Positions 1,966 to 17,192 of a stretch of DNA of 64,000 nt are shown piece by piece (positions within the stretch are counted from its first letter, which is position 1; every line of letters begins with the position of its first letter). The notes under the pieces are model-generated. The model was not told the DNA's origin. It saw only the letters and a program-made list of their open reading frames with translations, and did no database searches. The stretch comes from Rubrivirga marina (GTDB lineage Bacteria; Bacteroidota; Rhodothermia; Rhodothermales; Rubricoccaceae), in NCBI RefSeq assembly GCF_002283365.1, contig NZ_MQWD01000001.1, positions 4,348,992 through 4,412,991 on the forward strand. Direction: 5' to 3'. Both the position numbers and the translations under genes were made by a program.

Positions 1966-2056
1966 GCCGCGTCGCCGTCAGGGCGGGCCGGAGAGGGTCC
2001 CGGCCCGAATCCGCGCGAGGACGGGCGGGTTGTCCGAGGGCACCTGCCCTTCGCCC

Positions 2057-3526
2057 ATGACGCCCCTCGAGATCCTCCGCCAGCGGACACGCCGGCTGAC
2101 CGACCACGACGTCGTCGGCGACGCCGACTACGTGCTGTGCTGGCTGATGCAGGCGCTCCGGGCCGAGGACAACCCGGCGATCGACGCGGCGATCGCCCTC
2201 GGCAACCGGTTGGGCAAGCCGGTCGTCGTGCTCCACGCGCTCGAGAACCGCTACCCGTACGCCTCGCACCGGCTCCATCGGTTCATCCTTGAGGCGTCGC
2301 AGGAGCTAGAGACCGGCGTCGAGGAACGCGGGCTCCGGTTCGTCCGGTGGGTCCGGCGCGAGGGCGAGTCCGAGGTGGACCTCGTGGCCCGGCTGGCCGA
2401 GCGCGCCGCGGCCGTCGTCGTGGACGACGTGCCGACGTTCGTCACGCGCGAGTACGCCGACGGGCTGGCGGACCGCCTCGACCGGGCCGTGCTCGCCGTC
2501 GACGCGTGCTGCGCGGTGCCCCAGCGTGCGTTCGACGGCCACCTCGGCTCGACCAAGGCGTTCCGGGCCGCCCACACGCCGCTCCGCGACGAGCACCTCT
2601 CCACCGACCTCCGCCGGGACCCCGACCTCGGGCCTTACGACGGCGACCTCGCGCTCGACTCCGAGGCGATCCGCGACCTCGACGCCGCGGGCCTCGACGC
2701 GCTCATCGCCGGGTGCGGCGTCGACATGAGTGTGCCGCCCCCCGACGGGTGGCACGGCGGCCGGCGCGCCGCGCTCGACCGGCTCGCGCACGCCGTCGAG
2801 CACGTCCTCGACCGCTACACGTGGACCCGCAACAACCCGGCGCTCCCGGACGGATCGACACGGCTCTCACCCTGGATGCACTTCGGCGTGCTCTCGCCCC
2901 GCGAGGTGGCCCGCGCCGCGCTCGACGCCGAGGCCGACGGCGACCTCCACCCCGCCGCCCGCTACAAATTCCTGGACGAGCTCCTGACGTGGCGCGAGTT
3001 CTACCACCACCAGTGCCGGCACGTCGCGGGCTGGTCGCGCTTCGAGGGGCTGCCGACGAAGGCGAAGGCCACCCTCCGCGCCCACGCCGACGACCCGCGC
3101 CCGACGCTCTACTCGCTCGACGAACTGGCACACGGCGAGACCGACGACGAGACGTGGAACGCGGCGCAGAAGGCGTTCACGGTCGACGGGTGGATGAACA
3201 ACAACCTCCGGATGTACTGGGTCGCCCAGCTCCTCCCGTGGCGCCCGACGCCGGAAGACGCCTTCGCCACGGCGTGCTACTTGAACGACCGCTTCAGCCT
3301 CGACGGCCGCGACGCGTCGACGTACGGCGGGATCCGGTCGGGCTTCGGAGAAGCGCGCCCGTGGAACGAACGCCCGATCTACGGGACCGTCGCGGGCAAA
3401 ACGAGCGCCGCGCTCCGGAAACGCGACGGCGTGCCCGCGTGGCTGGCCGCGCAGGCCGCCCGCGACGTCCCGTTCCGCGCCGCCATCGCCGACGACCCGC
3501 CGCCGGCCTTCGACCGCTACCGCTAG
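2057..3526 (+). CDS. Class II CPD photolyase (deoxyribodipyrimidine photo-lyase)
   Basis: Uses light and FAD to split cyclobutane pyrimidine dimers in DNA. The 489-residue protein has class II signatures: the N-terminal DNPAIDAAIALG segment of the antenna domain, then LSPWMHFGVLS, WNAAQKAF, RMYWVAQLLPW and YLNDRFSLDGRDASTYGGI in the FAD-binding half, with ERPIYGTV near the end. Length is normal for class II. The ATG at 2057 is chosen over the in-frame TTG at 2030. It faces the lytic transglycosylase gene and shares a palindrome with it. A LOV-type kinase elsewhere in the window also suggests life in light. Substrate preference (CPD rather than 6-4) is inferred from the class. Confidence 0.9.
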   Translation: MTPLEILRQRTRRLTDHDVVGDADYVLCWLMQALRAEDNPAIDAAIALGNRLGKPVVVLHALENRYPYASHRLHRFILEASQELETGVEERGLRFVRWVRREGESEVDLVARLAERAAAVVVDDVPTFVTREYADGLADRLDRAVLAVDACCAVPQRAFDGHLGSTKAFRAAHTPLRDEHLSTDLRRDPDLGPYDGDLALDSEAIRDLDAAGLDALIAGCGVDMSVPPPDGWHGGRRAALDRLAHAVEHVLDRYTWTRNNPALPDGSTRLSPWMHFGVLSPREVARAALDAEADGDLHPAARYKFLDELLTWREFYHHQCRHVAGWSRFEGLPTKAKATLRAHADDPRPTLYSLDELAHGETDDETWNAAQKAFTVDGWMNNNLRMYWVAQLLPWRPTPEDAFATACYLNDRFSLDGRDASTYGGIRSGFGEARPWNERPIYGTVAGKTSAALRKRDGVPAWLAAQAARDVPFRAAIADDPPPAFDRYR

Positions 3527-3554: not shown

Positions 3555-5888
3555 CTAGTCGGCGCCGTAGAGGCCCTCGTAGATCGCCCGGTTGCGCGTG
3601 AGGATCTTGACGTAGTCGCGCGTCTCGCGGAACGGGATCCGCTCGGTGAAGAGGGCGTCGTCGCCAAACTCGGGGAACGTCCGCCACTGGTCGACCTGGT
3701 GCGGCCCGGCGTTGTAGGCGCCGAAGACCGCCGGGAGCGCGCCGTCGTAGGCCGCGACCTGCTGGCCGACGTACCGCGTCCCGAGGTGGACGTTGACCTC
3801 CGGGAGGTAGAGCAGCTCGGGGTCCCACGGTTCGATTCCCTCCTCCGCCGCGAGCGTGCGCGCCGTCGCCGGCATGAGCTGCATGAGCCCCCGCGCGCCG
3901 ACGTACGACGTGGCCCGCTCCGAGAATTGGGATTCCTGCCGGATGAGGGCCGCCGCCACGAACGGGTCGATGCCGCGGGCCGTGGCCTCGGCCGCGATCA
4001 TGCGGCGGAACGGGAACGGGTAGAGGATGCGGAGCCGCCGCGCGTTCGTCCCCCCGCCGAGGCTCTGCCCGATGAGGATCGCCCGACGACCGTACCCACG
4101 CTCGACGAGGGCCTCGGCGAGGGCGTAGCGCGTCGCCGTCCCGCCGCCGGCCCGAGCGATCGCCCGGTCCAGCTCGGCCTCCGCGGCGTCGGGAAAGCCG
4201 GCCTCGCGCAGGAGGTCGACGCCGCGCAACGCATCGGCCACGCGCGCAGCGGCGTCCGGGTCGTCGGGCGGCGAGGCGCTCAGGGGGAGCGGCCAGAACG
4301 GCTCGCCGAGGGCCTCACTGGCGAGGAGGGCGTAGTACGAGTCGCGCTCCTGGCGGAGGACGCCGCGGAACCGCTCGGCGGCGGCCTCGGCGTCGCCCGC
4401 CTCGGCGAGCGCACGGCCCGCCCAGTAGAGGGAGCGGAGAGCGTCGGCGCCGCGGGGCTGGCGCGTCCGGTACCCGTCCCACAGCCGGGCGGCCTCGGCG
4501 TAGTCCTCGTCCAGAAACGCTTGGCCCGCGCGCCGCATCGTCGCGAGGCCGGCCCAGCTCGTCCCGGCGTGCTCCTGCTCGACGCGCTGGTAGAGCGGGA
4601 GCGCGCGGTCGAGGTCGCCGCCCTGGTGGAGCACGTCGGCGGCGAAGTAGAGGTTGGCGACGGGCTTGGCCTCGGCGAGCTCGAGGTACACCGCCGCGGC
4701 CTCGTCGGTGCGGCCCATCCGGCCGAGCGTGCCGGCCCAGAGCGAGCGCGCGTCCGTCCGGTCCCGGATCGGCTGGAGCATGGCCTCGACCTCGTCGTAC
4801 CGCTGGGCGTCGAAGAGCGCGTCGGCGGCCTCGTAGCGGACGTCGGCCTGCTGCTCGGGCGTGCCGGTGTCGGCGTCGAGCCACTGGCGGAAGGCGTCGG
4901 CGGCGTCGCTGTTGAGGCCGAGCGCGCGGTCGGTCCGGGCGAGGGCGAGCCACTCGGCGGCCGTCGGGTCGCCCTCGCGGAGGCGCGCGGCGGCCTCGCG
5001 GGCGGCGGCGCTCGCGGGGTCGATGCCGATGGCCTCACGGTACAGCGCGCGCGCCGCGTCGCCGTCACCCGCCTCGGCGGCGAGCCGACCGGCCGTCACC
5101 GTGAAGCCGGCGCGCGCGGCGTCGTTGCCCGTCTGCCGTCGAGCTTGGTCGGCCAGCCGTCGCGCCGCCTCGAGGTCGCCCGACCGGCGCGCGGCCTCGA
5201 TCCGAGCGGCCCACGCCCGACGCCCGAGCGTGCCGCCCGAGACGCGCCCGACGACCGCCTCCACCCGGTCGACGTCGCCGTCCTGAGCGAGCGCCTCGGC
5301 CTCCAACACGGCCAGCCAGTCGGGCGACACATCGGCCACCTCGGAGAGCGCGCGGTCGCCCGCCTCGGGGTCGGTCCGGGCCAGGACGAGCGCGCGGCGG
5401 AGACGAGCGGCGCCGCGTTCCACACCGAGTTGAGACGAGTCCGACGCGGCCAGAAACGCGTCATAGCCGCTGCGCGCCGCGTCGGCGTCGCCCGCGTCGT
5501 CGGCGGCACGGGCGAGGAGGTAGAGGCCCCGACCACCGTCCAGCGAGTCGAGCCCCGCGGCGCCGTCGAGGAGCGTGCGGACGCGAGGCCAGTCGTCCGA
5601 GCCGGCCTCCGCGCGAGCGGCGAGGAGCCGCGCCTCGGGGGCGAGGCGGGCCGGCTCGTCCGTGTAGGGCCGCAGGAGGCGGACCGCACGCTGGGGGCGG
5701 TCCGTGTCGAGGAACGCCGCGGCCTCCGCCAGGACGTCGGGGCTGAGGGACGTCACGTCAGCGGCGACCGGTCCGGTGCCGTCTGGCTCATCGGCGCCCG
5801 CCCCGTCGGCGCGACACCCGGCGGCGAGGGCCACGAGCAGGCCCAGCGTGAGGCCGAGAGCGAACAAGGAGCGGGGAGAGTCGGTCAT
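3555..5888 (-). CDS. Slt-type soluble lytic transglycosylase with TPR-like region, lipoprotein
   Basis: Cleaves peptidoglycan glycan strands to 1,6-anhydro-muropeptides. The 777-residue protein begins with a lipoprotein signal (lipobox LAAGC). It continues with about 550 residues of Ala-rich helical TPR-like repeats, as in the superhelical part of Slt70, and ends with the catalytic domain (about 630-777). There the catalytic Glu is in RQESQF, followed by GARGLMQLMPATA, the NVHLGTRY segment and AYNAGPHQV. The ATG at 5888 is the only start giving a signal peptide. An AmpG-like transporter and amidases nearby fit a cell-wall recycling theme. The frame stays open far upstream, but that part is the antisense shadow of other genes. 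Confidence 0.93.
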   Translation of the reverse strand: MTDSPRSLFALGLTLGLLVALAAGCRADGAGADEPDGTGPVAADVTSLSPDVLAEAAAFLDTDRPQRAVRLLRPYTDEPARLAPEARLLAARAEAGSDDWPRVRTLLDGAAGLDSLDGGRGLYLLARAADDAGDADAARSGYDAFLAASDSSQLGVERGAARLRRALVLARTDPEAGDRALSEVADVSPDWLAVLEAEALAQDGDVDRVEAVVGRVSGGTLGRRAWAARIEAARRSGDLEAARRLADQARRQTGNDAARAGFTVTAGRLAAEAGDGDAARALYREAIGIDPASAAAREAAARLREGDPTAAEWLALARTDRALGLNSDAADAFRQWLDADTGTPEQQADVRYEAADALFDAQRYDEVEAMLQPIRDRTDARSLWAGTLGRMGRTDEAAAVYLELAEAKPVANLYFAADVLHQGGDLDRALPLYQRVEQEHAGTSWAGLATMRRAGQAFLDEDYAEAARLWDGYRTRQPRGADALRSLYWAGRALAEAGDAEAAAERFRGVLRQERDSYYALLASEALGEPFWPLPLSASPPDDPDAAARVADALRGVDLLREAGFPDAAEAELDRAIARAGGGTATRYALAEALVERGYGRRAILIGQSLGGGTNARRLRILYPFPFRRMIAAEATARGIDPFVAAALIRQESQFSERATSYVGARGLMQLMPATARTLAAEEGIEPWDPELLYLPEVNVHLGTRYVGQQVAAYDGALPAVFGAYNAGPHQVDQWRTFPEFGDDALFTERIPFRETRDYVKILTRNRAIYEGLYGAD

Positions 5889-5992: not shown

Positions 5993-6460
5993 CTACCCGC
6001 GGTCCCCGATCCACGCGCCGGGCACGGCCACCAGCCGGAAGCGCCAGATCCGGTAGCCGTCGGCGCCCGTGTCCGCGACATAGTCCTCGACCGTGTAGAG
6101 GCCGTCGTAGCGGTAGCCGGCCTCGGGCGGGCGCCACACGCCGCGCCCGACGCCGCGGCTCAGGCGGACCGGGAGGCGCCGCCGGGCGCTCTCCGCCAGC
6201 GCGAGGTTCGACCGCGTCAGCGACTGGTCGCCGATCTGGCGGCCCGTCCGCGGATGCCGCGCGCCGGAGCCCGTGTAGAGGACGGTCGCCCCGCGGTCTT
6301 CGTCGTCGACGAACGCGCAGTTGAGGATGATCGACTCGGCGCCTTCGGTCGCGCGCCCGCAGATGCCGGCCCGGCGCGGCCGGTGGACGCCGGCGACCGA
6401 CAGGGCGATGCGGTCGTCGAACAGGGTGCCGATGGGGACGCCGGGGACGGGGCCGAACAC
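5993..6460 (-). CDS. Stand-alone SRA-YDG domain protein (modified-cytosine reader)
   Basis: SRA-YDG domains flip and bind 5-methylcytosine-type bases. The 155-residue product is nearly all domain: FGPVPGVPIGTLFDDR at the N-terminus, then GVHRPRRAGICG, GAESIILNCAFVDDEDRG, YTGSGA, IGDQSLTRSNLAL, and the name-giving YRYDGLYTVEDY with YRIWRFRLV at the end. Most bacterial SRA proteins carry a fused HNH or other nuclease domain; here none is fused, and neither neighbour is a nuclease or methylase. The GTG at 6460 (within CACGTG) is chosen because the domain begins directly after it; no in-frame ATG exists close by. The gene is divergent from the kinase at 6531 and 70 bases from it, so both may share a control region. 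Confidence 0.88.
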   Translation of the reverse strand: MFGPVPGVPIGTLFDDRIALSVAGVHRPRRAGICGRATEGAESIILNCAFVDDEDRGATVLYTGSGARHPRTGRQIGDQSLTRSNLALAESARRRLPVRLSRGVGRGVWRPPEAGYRYDGLYTVEDYVADTGADGYRIWRFRLVAVPGAWIGDRG

Positions 6461-6530: not shown

Positions 6531-9101
6531 ATGCCCACGTTCCCGTCCGTCGAGGTCGCGCTCGACGCGCTCCAGACGCGCGCCGACGACCTCGAGCGCC
6601 AGCTCGCCGAGGCTCGCCGAGGCGGCGACGTCGAGTCGGCGCTGGACCGGGTCTGGACGCGGGCGCTCGCGCTCGACCACAGCGACGAGACGCTCGGCGT
6701 GGCCGTCGCCGTGTTCGACGCGCTCCGCGAGCTCGGGCTGCCGGTCCTCCAGATCGGCCTGAGCGGCCAGCCCGACGGCGGCGAGGCCCCCGTATGGACC
6801 GCCGGTGTCGACGCCGATGACGCGCCACGAGCGTCGCACCACGTGACGGCCACGACGGGGCACCCCGTCCTCGCCGCCGCGTTCGCCGCCGACCGCGCCG
6901 ACGGGCCCGTCGTCGAGCCGCTCGGGCGGACCGCCTTCGAGACCTACCTGCGCGCGTCGCTCGCACCCTACCCCGCGACCTACGCCGACCGCGTCGTCGC
7001 CCGCTCGCCGCGCGCCGCGACAGTCTACGTCGTCGCCATCCCGGCCGGGGCCCGGCAGAGCGGCCCGCTCCTCGCCCTGTTTTGGGAGCGGCCCACCGAC
7101 GACGCGCTCCGCGTCCTGGAACGGTTCGCCGTCCTGTTCGGCCTGGCCTACGCCCGCCACCAGGACCTCCAGCGCGCCGAGGCCGAGGCCCGGACCTCCC
7201 GCATCGACGCCGCCGCCGAGCGCGTGCGCGCGCAGGCCCTCGCGATGCGCCGGAGCGACGACCTCGACGGGGCCGCCGCGGCCGTGTTCGACGGGCTCGC
7301 CGCGCTCGGCGTCCCCGCCCGCCGCGCCACCCTCGCCGTCGTCGACGCCGAGAGCCGGGAGACGACCTACTGGTCCTCCGCCGCCCCGGACGCCCCGACG
7401 ACGGCCCACGTCACGACCATCGAGGGCCACCCGTTCTACGACGCCCTCTGGGTGGCGTGGCGCCGCCAGCGGAGCCTGTCGTACATCCTCGAGGGCGACG
7501 AGCTCGAGGCCTACCGGGCCCGCCTCGGTGAGATCCGGGCCGACCTCCTCGACGCCCATCCCGAGCGCGAGCGGGAGTACGTCCACGCCGTTGCCGCCCC
7601 GAGCGGCGTCCTCGTGGCGTTCTCCTCGCGGCCGTTCTCCGAGGACACCGTCGAGGTGATGGAGCGGCTGGTCGGCGCGTTCCAGGTCGCCATCGAGCGG
7701 GCGGAGGGGCTCCGCGAGGCGGAGGCGCGGGCCCGCGAAGCCGAGATCGGCGCGTCCGTCGACCGCGTCCGCGCCGAGATCGCCTCGATGCGGACGACCG
7801 ACGACCTCGACCGCGTGACGCCGCTCGTGTGGCAGGAGCTGACGGCCCTCGGCGTCCGGTTCTTCCGCTGCGCCGTGCTCATCGTCGACGCCGAAGCCGA
7901 GGTGCTCCGCGTTTACCTCGCCACGCCCGACGGCGAGCCGCTGGCCGCGATCGACCTCCCGTTCGGTGGGCACCCGTTCGTCGAGACCATCGTGGCCCAC
8001 TGGCGGGACGAGCGCGTGCTCTCCGGGGCCTGGGCGCCCGACGAGGTCGAGAGCTGGGTCGCGTTCCTGGAGTCGAACGGGCTCGACGCCGAGACGGCCC
8101 GGTCCTTCGCCGACCCCTCGGAGTCGCTCGCCCTCCACTTCGCCCCGTTCGCCCAGGGCCTCCTGTTCGTCGGCGGCGCCGCGGCGCTCCCACCCGACGA
8201 CGGCGCCGCCGTGCAGGCCCTCGCCGACGCGCTCGAGGTGGCCTACGCCCGCTACGACGACTTCCAGCGGCTCGACGCCCGGACGCGCGAGGTCGAGGCG
8301 GCCCTCGCCGACCTCCGTGCGGCCCAAGAACGGCTCGTCCAGTCCGAGAAGCTGGCGTCGCTGGGCCAGCTCACGGCCGGGATCGCCCACGAGATCAAGA
8401 ACCCGCTCAACTTCGTCAACAACTTCGCCTCGCTCTCGCGCGACCTCGCGACCGAGTTGGCGGCCGAGCTCGACGCCGAGGCGCCCGACGCCGACCTCGT
8501 CGCCGAGATCCTCGACGACCTCCGCCAGAACGCCCAGCGGATCGAGCAGCACGGCCGTCGCGCCGACGCCATCGTCCGCGGGATGATGCAGCACGCGCGC
8601 GCCGGCCAGGGCGAGCGCGCGCCGGCCGACCTCAACGCGCTCGTCGGCGAACACGCGAACCTGGCCTACCACGGCCGCCGCGCCCAGACCTCCGACTTCG
8701 ACGCGGCCCTCCAGATTGACCTCGGCGACGACGTGGGCCAGGTCGACGTCGTCGCCCAAGACCTCGGCCGGGTCGTCCTCAACCTCGTCACGAACGCGTT
8801 CGACGCCGTCACGGCCCGCGCCCAGGCCGAGGCCCCGGGGTACCAGCCGACCGTCCGCGTCACGACGCGACGGGCCGGCGCGACCGTCGAGATCACCGTC
8901 GAGGACAACGGGACGGGCATCCCCGAGGACGTCCGGCGGCGCGTGTTCGAGCCGTTCTACACGACGAAGCCGGCCGGCAAGGGCACCGGCCTCGGCCTCT
9001 CGATGAGCCACGACATCGTGGAGCAGGGCCACGGTGGCTCGCTCGACGTTGAGAGCACCGAGGGCGAGGGGACGGCGTTCGTCATCACGCTCCCCGCCTG
9101 A
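6531..9101 (+). CDS. Cytosolic sensor histidine kinase with three internal GAF-like repeats
   Basis: The 856-residue protein has no signal peptide or membrane segment. It contains three similar units of about 190-200 residues. Units two and three each open with a coiled coil of the form EAxxxRIDAAxERVRAxxxxMRxxDDLD, then a GAF-like fold (ALGVPARRATLAVVDAES, ALGVRFFRCAVLIVDAEA); unit one is the most diverged. The kinase core follows: HisKA with phospho-acceptor His620 in GIAHEIKNPLNFVNN, then HATPase N box NLVTNAFDAV (about 752), G1 DNGTGIPED and G2 GKGTGLGLSMS. The ligand is unknown. No response regulator is adjacent; the next gene is a convergent hybrid kinase. The ATG at 6531 follows a CCCC leader typical of the window. 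Confidence 0.88.
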   Translation: MPTFPSVEVALDALQTRADDLERQLAEARRGGDVESALDRVWTRALALDHSDETLGVAVAVFDALRELGLPVLQIGLSGQPDGGEAPVWTAGVDADDAPRASHHVTATTGHPVLAAAFAADRADGPVVEPLGRTAFETYLRASLAPYPATYADRVVARSPRAATVYVVAIPAGARQSGPLLALFWERPTDDALRVLERFAVLFGLAYARHQDLQRAEAEARTSRIDAAAERVRAQALAMRRSDDLDGAAAAVFDGLAALGVPARRATLAVVDAESRETTYWSSAAPDAPTTAHVTTIEGHPFYDALWVAWRRQRSLSYILEGDELEAYRARLGEIRADLLDAHPEREREYVHAVAAPSGVLVAFSSRPFSEDTVEVMERLVGAFQVAIERAEGLREAEARAREAEIGASVDRVRAEIASMRTTDDLDRVTPLVWQELTALGVRFFRCAVLIVDAEAEVLRVYLATPDGEPLAAIDLPFGGHPFVETIVAHWRDERVLSGAWAPDEVESWVAFLESNGLDAETARSFADPSESLALHFAPFAQGLLFVGGAAALPPDDGAAVQALADALEVAYARYDDFQRLDARTREVEAALADLRAAQERLVQSEKLASLGQLTAGIAHEIKNPLNFVNNFASLSRDLATELAAELDAEAPDADLVAEILDDLRQNAQRIEQHGRRADAIVRGMMQHARAGQGERAPADLNALVGEHANLAYHGRRAQTSDFDAALQIDLGDDVGQVDVVAQDLGRVVLNLVTNAFDAVTARAQAEAPGYQPTVRVTTRRAGATVEITVEDNGTGIPEDVRRRVFEPFYTTKPAGKGTGLGLSMSHDIVEQGHGGSLDVESTEGEGTAFVITLPA

Positions 9102-9174: not shown

Positions 9175-14448
<5,274 letters not shown>

Positions 14449-14661
14449 GCGGGGAAGGGAAGGCCAGGGGTACCCCGCCATCTCATCGCCGGCGGGGCGG
14501 CCTCCCTACTCCCGAACCGGGCATATGTGCCCCAGAGGTGTTCAAGTGCCCCGCGAGTCCACCACCGCCCCCGTTCCGTGTGGCCGGCACGCACATCCCC
14601 ACCCAACGGGTCAACTCATCCGACCCGGTCCGCCTCGGCGTCGAGGCGGGCGGAGCGAGCC
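14449..14661. other. Intergenic region upstream of the poly-HAMP kinase
   Basis: 213 bases between the EcsC-like gene and the hybrid kinase start (both minus strand). It holds a 10-bp palindrome GGGGTACCCC at 14467-14476, a dyad GGGCA-tatg-TGCCC at 14519-14532, and a repeated GTGCCCC (about 14527 and 14547). It also contains the 3'-end palindrome at 14630-14649. The dyads are candidate regulatory sites for the kinase; no recognisable promoter is claimed. Confidence 0.5.
14630..14649. repeat. 3'-end palindrome, copy 5 (one G-T pair)
   Basis: Same 20-base element with one change (C to T in the right arm next to the centre), which leaves a G-T wobble. It lies 12 bases downstream of the EcsC-like gene stop on the minus strand. 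Confidence 0.82.
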
Positions 14662-15530: not shown

Positions 15531-17192
15531 CTACTCGGTGCTAATGTCGTACTTCTTGAGGAGCCGGTACATCGTCGCCCGGCCGATGCCGAGGTCGGAG
15601 GCCGCGCGCTCGACGTTCCCCTCGCGGAGCTCGAAGGCCCGCTCGACGGCGCGGCGCTTGAGCTCCTCCAGGGGGACGATGGCGTCCTCGGGGTCGAGGT
15701 CGGCGATACCCCCGCCGGCCGTGCCATGTTGCGCGGGCCGCGCGCCCGTCGCCACGCCCGAGGCGGCCGGAGCCGTGCCGGACACGGGCAGCGGCGGGAT
15801 GTCGTCCCACGACGTCGGCCGCGCGGCCGGGGCCGCCGAACCGGTCGACACGGGGGCCCCCGCCTCGGGCGCCGACTCGGCGACGGTGGGGACGGGCTCG
15901 GGCTCGACAGCCGCCCCGTCACCGGACGAGACGCTGGAGCCGTCGCCCGAGGCGCCGTCGCCGGACGCCCCCAGGCGTTCGGCCCACGGCCGGATGGCCT
16001 GCGGCCCGTCCAGCAGGAGGTCGCTCTCCTCGATCTCCTCGCCGTCCGAGATCAGGATGGCCCGCTCGACCGTCGACTTCAGCTCGCGGACGTTGCCCGG
16101 CCACCCGTAGTCGAGGAGCGCGCGGACGGCGTCGGTCGAGAGCCGCTTGCCCTTGAACTGGGAGTGCGACGCGAGGTAGTCCTCGAGGAAGCCCTGCGCC
16201 AGCAGGAGCACGTCGTTGCCGCGCTCGCGGAGCGGCGGGAGCGCGACCGGGAACTGGAACAGCCGGTAGTAGAGGTCCTCCCGGAACGTCCCGGCCTTGA
16301 CCATGTCGAGCACGTTCTTGTTCGTGGCCGAGATCACGCGGCACTCGAACTTGATGGTGCCGCTCCCGCCGACGCGCGTGATCTCGCGGTTCTGGAGCGC
16401 GCGGAGAAGCTTGGCCTGGAGCCCGAGGTCGAGCTCGCCGACCTCGTCGAGGAACAGCGTCCCGCCGTCGGCCTGCTCGAACTTGCCGATGTGGCGCGCG
16501 TGGGCGCCCGTGAACGACCCCTTCTCGTGGCCGAAGAACTCGCTCTCCATGAGCTCCTTCGGGATCGCCGCGCAGTTGACGACGACGAACGGGCCGACCT
16601 CGGGCTCGCCCGGAGGCGGGTCGGAGTTGAAGTGGATGGCCCGCGCCACGAGCTCCTTGCCCGTGCCACTCTCGCCCTCGATCGCGACCGTGAGGTTGCC
16701 CCGGAGCGTCTTCTGGATGAGCTGGTACACCCGCTCCATCGCCGGGCTGTCGCCGACGATCTCCTCCATCCCATACTTCTTGGCCACCTCGGCCCGGAGC
16801 TGCTCGACCTCGCGGGCCAGCTTGACGCGGCCCTTCAGCCGCTCGACCACGACGTCGAGCTTGACGAGGTCATCCTGGCCCTTCGTGATGTAGTCGGTCG
16901 CGCCGCCCTTCATGGCCTCGACGGCCACCTCGGCCGTGCCCTGCGCCGAGATCATCACCACGGGCAGGTCGGGCGCGAAGAGCTGGAGCCGCCGGAGCGT
17001 CTCCATCCCGCCGATCCCCGGCATCATGATGTCGAGGAAGACGAGGTCGGGCTTGAGACGGTCGAGCGCGTCGAGCGCGTCCTCGCCCGAGTGGAAGACG
17101 TGGACCTCGTGGTCCTTGGGCTTGTCGAGCCGGTACGAGAGAAGCCGGGCGTAGTGCTTGTCGTCGTCGACGACGAAGATGCGCGTGGTCAC
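15531..17192 (-). CDS. NtrC-type sigma-54-dependent response regulator
   Basis: The 553-residue activator has three parts. The N-terminal receiver domain has its acidic pocket in VDDD and acceptor Asp in VFLDIMMPG (about residue 54). The AAA+ sigma-54 interaction domain has Walker A GESGTGKE (about 174), a loop reading GSFTGA in place of GAFTGA, Walker B GGTLFLDEVGEL, and the LPPLRERGNDV motif. The C-terminal Fis-type helix-turn-helix ends RAASDLGIGRATMYRLLKKY. About 110 residues of low-complexity Pro/Ala/Ser linker separate the AAA+ and DNA-binding domains, longer than usual. It should remodel RNA polymerase-sigma-54 at enhancer-dependent promoters. No cognate kinase is adjacent. Start is GTG at 17192, directly before TTRIFVVDDD. 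Confidence 0.92.
   Translation of the reverse strand: MTTRIFVVDDDKHYARLLSYRLDKPKDHEVHVFHSGEDALDALDRLKPDLVFLDIMMPGIGGMETLRRLQLFAPDLPVVMISAQGTAEVAVEAMKGGATDYITKGQDDLVKLDVVVERLKGRVKLAREVEQLRAEVAKKYGMEEIVGDSPAMERVYQLIQKTLRGNLTVAIEGESGTGKELVARAIHFNSDPPPGEPEVGPFVVVNCAAIPKELMESEFFGHEKGSFTGAHARHIGKFEQADGGTLFLDEVGELDLGLQAKLLRALQNREITRVGGSGTIKFECRVISATNKNVLDMVKAGTFREDLYYRLFQFPVALPPLRERGNDVLLLAQGFLEDYLASHSQFKGKRLSTDAVRALLDYGWPGNVRELKSTVERAILISDGEEIEESDLLLDGPQAIRPWAERLGASGDGASGDGSSVSSGDGAAVEPEPVPTVAESAPEAGAPVSTGSAAPAARPTSWDDIPPLPVSGTAPAASGVATGARPAQHGTAGGGIADLDPEDAIVPLEELKRRAVERAFELREGNVERAASDLGIGRATMYRLLKKYDISTE

Follow-up and report, generated by a model that had tools for sequence, protein, structure and literature searches.

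An old nuclease-free SRA lineage in Rubrivirga marina and its relatives, a candidate reader without scissors at a restriction slot

Rubrivirga marina encodes a solitary SRA protein that belongs to a nuclease-free lineage common to two genera, a lineage that is old relative to the SRA-HNH enzymes of its own family and under purifying selection. The gene lies in the window, by which we mean the whole 64,000-nucleotide stretch of DNA analysed here. The explanation we favour, at a probability of roughly 0.4, is that its product reads modified cytosines and works by occupying them, thereby tempering or replacing SRA-HNH (type IV) restriction at the same locus.

The SRA gene (5993..6460, minus strand) runs from a GTG start at 6460 down to 5993, and 155 residues plus the stop codon fill the frame, which contains the motifs YTGSGA, YRYDGLYTVEDY and YRIWRFRLV. 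Residues 2-148 match Pfam SAD_SRA (PF02182) at 143.5 bits (E 5e-42) against a cut-off of 30.7 bits, covering profile positions 2-147 of 148. Pfam detected no second family in the protein at E 0.01 and no HNH domain on the chain. No other gene in the R. marina genome (4.98 Mb, 97% complete) matches PF02182. AlphaFold was run on 22 sequences from the window and the loci of relatives, and its model of the window protein has a mean pLDDT of 95.7 and a pTM of 0.89. Among the 50 structure matches listed by VIA-align 2, the best was TagI (6ghs; Z 23.6, 1.8 Å over 149 residues, 40% identity) and the second UHRF1 (3clz; Z 23.3, 155 residues), which together with the confident model identifies an SRA fold. 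The window gene encodes a single SRA domain and nothing more, and its reading as a nuclease-free SRA is well supported. The initial annotation, which gave no strand, had described a complete 155-residue SRA with these motifs and no HNH, and the frame, the Pfam match and the fold model bear it out.

Alignment places a flipped-base pocket of two aromatics and a carboxylate at Phe50, Tyr62 and Asp53. Window residues Ile33, Asp53, Tyr62 and Thr63 are identical to TagI Ile38, Asp58, Tyr67 and Thr68 (TagI pocket residues and numbering from PMC6212794), and Phe50 aligns with Tyr55, the first stacking tyrosine of TagI, a conservative change. The pocket edge is different. The codons for Asn47-Cys48-Ala49-Phe50 (6311..6322, minus strand, counted from 6460) correspond to TagI Asn52-Gly53-Gly54-Tyr55, such that the Gly-Gly pair found before the first pocket tyrosine in both TagI and UHRF1 is Cys-Ala in the window protein and also in that of G180, another species of the genus. 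TagI Gln35 is likewise replaced, by arginine.

The SRA gene occupies a chromosomal slot with conserved borders. One border, common to G180 and a further relative, G178, is a lytic transglycosylase (SLT) gene with TPR repeats (3555..5888, minus strand). The other is an EcsC-family gene (PF12787; 14662..15513, minus strand), which adjoins a sigma-54-dependent response regulator that is also a conserved neighbour of the slot (15531..17192, minus strand, start estimated from sequence). A photolyase-family gene (2030..3526, plus strand) marks the flank, and one msrA and two consecutive msrB genes (160-1965) are conserved beside the slot in several relatives. The gene order in G178 and G180 is msrA, msrB, msrB, photolyase, SLT, SRA, EcsC and response regulator, and this identical slot holds an SRA-HNH in G178 and a solitary SRA in G180. 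The locus of G176 retains the EcsC side. SRA lies directly downstream of EcsC in G178, G180 and G176, and just 3' of EcsC in G163 as well; in G179 and G177 it stands at a contig end, where adjacency cannot be judged. In three relatives, G173, G174 and G175, EcsC is present but SRA gave no match. EcsC adjoins msrB in G175, and in G174 it is directly followed, where relatives carry SRA, by a C5-cytosine methylase and a DUF4928 protein (L195 2168-4244), the latter a type II restriction enzyme by PADLOC (142.7 bits). The place beside EcsC is thus a restriction hotspot: its occupant can be an SRA-HNH, a type II restriction-modification pair or a solitary SRA, or the place may have none of the three.

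Two kinases separate SRA from EcsC in the window. The first is a sensor histidine kinase (6531..9101, plus strand) that diverges from SRA, its ATG at 6531 lying 70 bases from the SRA start, just as the initial annotation had reported. The second, between EcsC and the first, is a multi-HAMP hybrid kinase with receiver domains (9175..14481, minus strand), and a hybrid kinase also follows EcsC in G179. We observed that a 276-bp tandem repeat (5.9 copies) underlies several HAMP domains of the window's hybrid kinase, and that the protein has three receiver matches. The divergent spacing could suggest that the SRA protein partners the sensor kinase as a signalling output that reads DNA marks. We regard this idea as scarcely credible, since a search of ten loci belonging to eight relatives found no counterpart of the kinase at E 1e-10, and in G178, G180 and G176 SRA follows EcsC; the conserved SRA-kinase pair for which the initial annotation had suggested a check does not appear.

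A 20-bp perfect palindrome is scattered through the same region. Exact copies lie at window positions 26, 3533, 5971, 9122, 19071, 49751 and 57268, several of them immediately after stop codons (SRA, photolyase/SLT, kinase, EcsC), and 16 sites with up to three mismatches compare with 0.34 expected. There are 141 exact copies genome-wide in R. marina, 40 in G179 and 28 in G178, with none in G180, G176 or G177 and 0 in the control. The palindrome is a lineage-specific terminator-like or mobile intergenic repeat.

An SRA is present in 9 of 244 genomes of the class. The nuclease-free form is found in R. marina, G180 and G176, and SRA-HNH in G178, G179, G177, G207 and G219, seen in part in G179 (an 81% complete genome) and G177. 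The SRA match of G163 is weak (31.5 bits), and by eye its frame also includes another HNH. A contig scan for SRA returned six loci: four SRA-HNH loci from Actinomycetota and two that lie on the contigs of G180 and G177. The closest relative of the window SRA is the nuclease-free protein of G180, at 85% identity. Between these two species, dN/dS is 0.29 for SRA, near the values of 0.25 for EcsC and 0.38 for SLT (Nei-Gojobori estimates on GC-rich genes with saturating synonymous sites).

Trees place both forms deep in the family. A tree of EcsC and the response regulator has the topology ((window,G179),(G178,G180)),(G176,G177), with the genera starred and support of 89/88 and 84/86 for the two inner pairs. 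All three pairs of sister species are divided, one species having a solitary SRA and the other an SRA-HNH. In the SRA tree, the solitary forms group as (window,G180),G176 at 99/90 and the fused forms as (G178,G179),G177 at 88/79, each form repeating the order of the genera. The window SRA groups with the family's SRA-HNH (99/87; 77 domains) and its slot is that of G178, which together indicate common descent and a shared locus. The split pairs would most simply be read as an ancestral pair with reciprocal loss or as repeated exchange in place. The loss of HNH is old, because G176, which shares a supported clade with the window SRA, belongs to another genus. Recent truncation of an SRA-HNH gene can be rejected: the closest relative is also nuclease-free, dN/dS is low, each form repeats the genus order, and a six-frame comparison with the HNH segment of G178 revealed no HNH remnant in the ~105 bp from the SRA stop to SLT. 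The initial annotation had named homologues that are always fused, with a truncation here, as the case against it; the closest homologue is nuclease-free, and sister species do carry the fused form.

The same two forms recur on a larger scale in f40, a family that we take to resemble Hymenobacteraceae, as its genus g124 presumably resembles Hymenobacter. SRA matches occur in 9 of 395 genomes in a sample of the phylum and in 122 of 200 f40 genomes. Of the latter, 81 have the solitary form only, 18 SRA-HNH only and 23 both, a tally in which G681 (among the 81) and one partner in G729 (among the 23) are partial. The stand-alone reader proposed initially is a real solitary SRA with the pocket aromatics and acid in place. 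Such proteins are not exceptional, since in this other family of the phylum most SRA-bearing genomes have the solitary form alone. Wherever both forms are present they are adjacent on one strand (23/23, one partner being cut by a contig end), with SRA-HNH first in 16 and the solitary gene first in 7. Within the flanks retrieved, 106 of the 122 loci have both an M16 peptidase and an O-methyltransferase and 10 have one of the two; the six loci with neither are all SRA-HNH of genus g223. The f40 slot is nearly always the same whatever the form.

The nuclease-free SRAs do not form one clade. An AU test on 76 domains with the trait columns removed rejected a single nuclease-free clade (p-AU 0.0019), ruling out one origin for all of them, and starred branches force at least four changes. 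Median dN/dS is 0.50 among nuclease-free rows (1111 pairs) versus 0.20 in the SRA part of fused rows (64 pairs), values computed by the same Nei-Gojobori method from pairs that are not independent; the higher figure would also be expected from relaxed selection.

We then compared residues across 163 SRA domains. Rows with fewer than 110 aligned positions (the L062 partner, both L180 frames, L008 of G179, L017 of G177, L178, L046 and L181) and 15 duplicate loci were excluded, the SRA of G163 was missed by the profile and a Janthinobacterium gene was not included; the L103-L178 domains enter these counts and not the trees. Gly-Gly is present at the pocket edge in 46/53 fused SRAs, 0/22 paired solitary SRAs and 1/88 other solitary SRAs (including L182, a contig-end copy whose genome also has an SRA-HNH). 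The sole exception among all 110 nuclease-free domains is G176. The seven fused SRAs that lack the pair have DK (3), GA (2), EK (1) or GS (1) instead, making Gly-Gly a usual but not strictly defining mark of SRA-HNH, and one that the window protein does not bear. The four f40 enzymes with Asp-Lys or Glu-Lys at this edge are those of L118, L124, L137 and L146, two of which are paired with a solitary SRA. Position 35 is arginine in 107/110 nuclease-free versus 1/53 fused domains. The pocket itself is kept in the nuclease-free rows, with Asp58 in 109/110, Tyr67 in 110/110 and Tyr or Phe at position 55 in 110/110. Hidden extra domains on solitary SRAs were considered and rejected: tails extend at most 25 residues past the SRA domain in all 110, and the ten frames whose stop-to-stop reading adds a long N-terminal extension match SAD_SRA only.

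With relatedness removed, four supported independent pairs remained, a number with which neither contrast can reach significance. Across them, the Gly-Gly contrast ran the same way in a mean of 3.3, the opposite way in 0 and showed no difference in 0.7, and that of Arg35 ran the same way in 2.9 and the opposite way in 1.0. It is suggestive, not significant, that the pocket contrasts would follow architecture after this correction. Work on PvuRts1I attributes an induced fit around 5mC to two glycines at one end of the UHRF1 and SUVH5 pocket and notes that this 5hmC-preferring enzyme has other residues in their place (PMC4157451); judged by spacing, they are probably the same pair as the Gly-Gly of TagI. 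The changed edge suggests that the base preferred by the window protein may differ from that of the nuclease-bearing form.

These data bear on two other explanations. A functionless, truncated and decaying restriction enzyme would fit the full SRA-HNH in sister species and the raised dN/dS of nuclease-free rows, but we consider it very improbable because conservation already contradicts it: two species keep the gene at 85% identity with dN/dS close to that of its neighbours, the pocket aromatics and acid are retained, the clade with G176 implies an old loss, and 81 genomes of another family retain solitary forms. The main rival, which we hold to be rather unlikely, is a reader that recognises a different base and acts apart from restriction, through an effector function of its own in transcription, DNA repair or the organisation of the chromosome. 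The frequency of the solitary form without SRA-HNH (81/122 in f40), the differences from SRA-HNH at Gly-Gly and position 35, the replaced glycines of PvuRts1I, if they are the same pair, and the nearby photolyase and Msr genes all point this way. Against it, SRA stays in slots where SRA-HNH alternates and is paired with SRA-HNH in 23 genomes, a type II restriction-modification pair occupies the same place in G174, and the photolyase and Msr repair genes have no match in the 18-kb locus of G176.

A cytosine methylase, for which the initial annotation had recommended a search, does exist. The sole C5-cytosine methylase match in R. marina is on contig C10 (32382-33569, two pieces of one frame), a separate contig of 94.5 kb that is possibly a plasmid. 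A C5 methylase is also present in G180 and in the fused G178, G179 and G177, and none was found in the solitary G176. In g124, it occurs in 28/74 solitary-only, 4/11 fused-only and 10/23 genomes with both forms (Fisher p 1.0 for solitary-only versus fused-only, 0.83 versus any fused). Methylase presence does not track SRA architecture; self-methylation was rejected on these counts as the driver of HNH loss, and they lend no support to solitary SRAs shielding host methylation.

Another possibility is a split or recruited restriction system in which the window SRA finds modified DNA and the cutting is left to a nuclease encoded elsewhere, for example a phosphorothioate-dependent SBD-HNH enzyme. 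R. marina has an HNH gene (L053 5123-6022; C1 ~1203100-1204000) that shares 40% identity across 74 residues with the HNH of the G178 SRA-HNH and scores 290 bits as a phosphorothioated-DNA restriction endonuclease, and ScoMcrA unites SBD, SRA and HNH in one chain (PMC7461809). However, the SBD-HNH gene lies 3.15 Mb from SRA along contig C1, and published work describes SBD-HNH proteins that lack SRA as endonucleases by themselves (PMC7461809). No HNH gene was found at the SRA locus, where the flanking genes are the lytic transglycosylase and the kinase, and the HNH profile detected no separate TagI-type frame in the flanks (mostly 1.5-2.5 kb) of nuclease-free SRAs; outside SRA-bearing frames, its single match in the loci was R. 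marina's own distant gene. The split system, which the initial annotation had also raised, is unsupported in this genome, and we judge it quite improbable. We additionally looked for a mobile origin. Phages gave no match to the window SRA or that of G298, viral contigs gave none to the window SRA in a search that reaches close relatives only, and plasmids gave one, an annotated YDG/SRA gene of 1254 bp from Janthinobacterium; a phage or plasmid origin was rejected on these results.

How might an SRA without HNH act on restriction? In the occupancy reading that we favour, a modified cytosine would be flipped from DNA into the Phe50/Tyr62/Asp53 pocket. HNH domains mediate the TagI dimer (PMC6212794), and because HNH is absent, the window protein is probably monomeric and unable to cut. 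With the pocket kept and both the blade and the HNH dimer surface missing, it would act by binding only, alone or via a partner. By covering modified cytosines, it could temper, narrow or replace restriction by SRA-HNH enzymes that are encoded alongside it in other species or able to arrive at the same slot. There is a precedent in DpnI, whose reader domain alone binds, competes with the whole enzyme and lowers cleavage (PMC3874153). The relation to restriction is drawn from the adjacent pairs and the restriction hotspot. The large number of solitary-only genomes suggests that the solitary SRA also functions, or at least survives, where SRA-HNH is absent. Its role cannot be limited to antagonising a resident enzyme, because no SRA-HNH was found in 81 of 122 f40 genomes or in R. 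marina itself. A more specific proposal, which we offer as speculative and on balance unlikely, is that nuclease-free SRA and SRA-HNH are, at fixed slots, either the two parts of one module or the two forms of a long-lived polymorphism. The solitary reader would be an antidote or governor that covers modified cytosines, its pocket retuned to a different modified base, and the window protein a lone governor conferring standing immunity to a type IV enzyme able to enter the slot.

The SRA domain and SRA-HNH enzymes are already known. A literature search found no paper on a stand-alone bacterial SRA, which does not show that none exists, and no account of a nuclease-free lineage that recurs, that alternates or pairs with SRA-HNH at fixed slots and that shares a pocket change; its f40-specific part was weak, relying on the presumed name of the group. 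TagI shares the window's SRA domain and most of its pocket, and SRA-HNH shares its slot, but without HNH the window protein has neither catalysis nor an HNH-mediated dimer. The SRA domains of UHRF1/UHRF2 and SUVH proteins share the fold (Z 16.8 to 23.3) and separate reader from nuclease, but belong to eukaryotic multidomain proteins, and UHRF1 has the Gly-Gly pair. PvuRts1I resembles the window protein in its replaced pocket-edge glycines (PMC4157451) but is fused to a nuclease, has Trp for the stacking Tyr and is absent among the structure matches listed. The SRA domain of ScoMcrA also has this fold (Z 12.1), but at 24% identity and in a chain with three recognised domains. Standalone EVE proteins are PUA-like base readers that stand as separate proteins beside restriction and toxin-antitoxin systems, but EVE is not SRA and their partners are type I or helicase-nuclease systems (PMC7641849).

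Adjacent SRA/SRA-HNH pairs make antagonism directly testable. Type IV enzymes cut modified DNA, methylated self DNA included. One reported way out of this conflict is for the methylase to repress the enzyme gene (PMC8989522). If solitary SRAs govern or replace SRA-HNH, they would represent a different solution to self-cutting, a reader without scissors. With their shifted pockets, the roughly one hundred nuclease-free readers found in nature would also be useful for asking which residues decide between 5mC and 5hmC, and they might serve as binding reagents.
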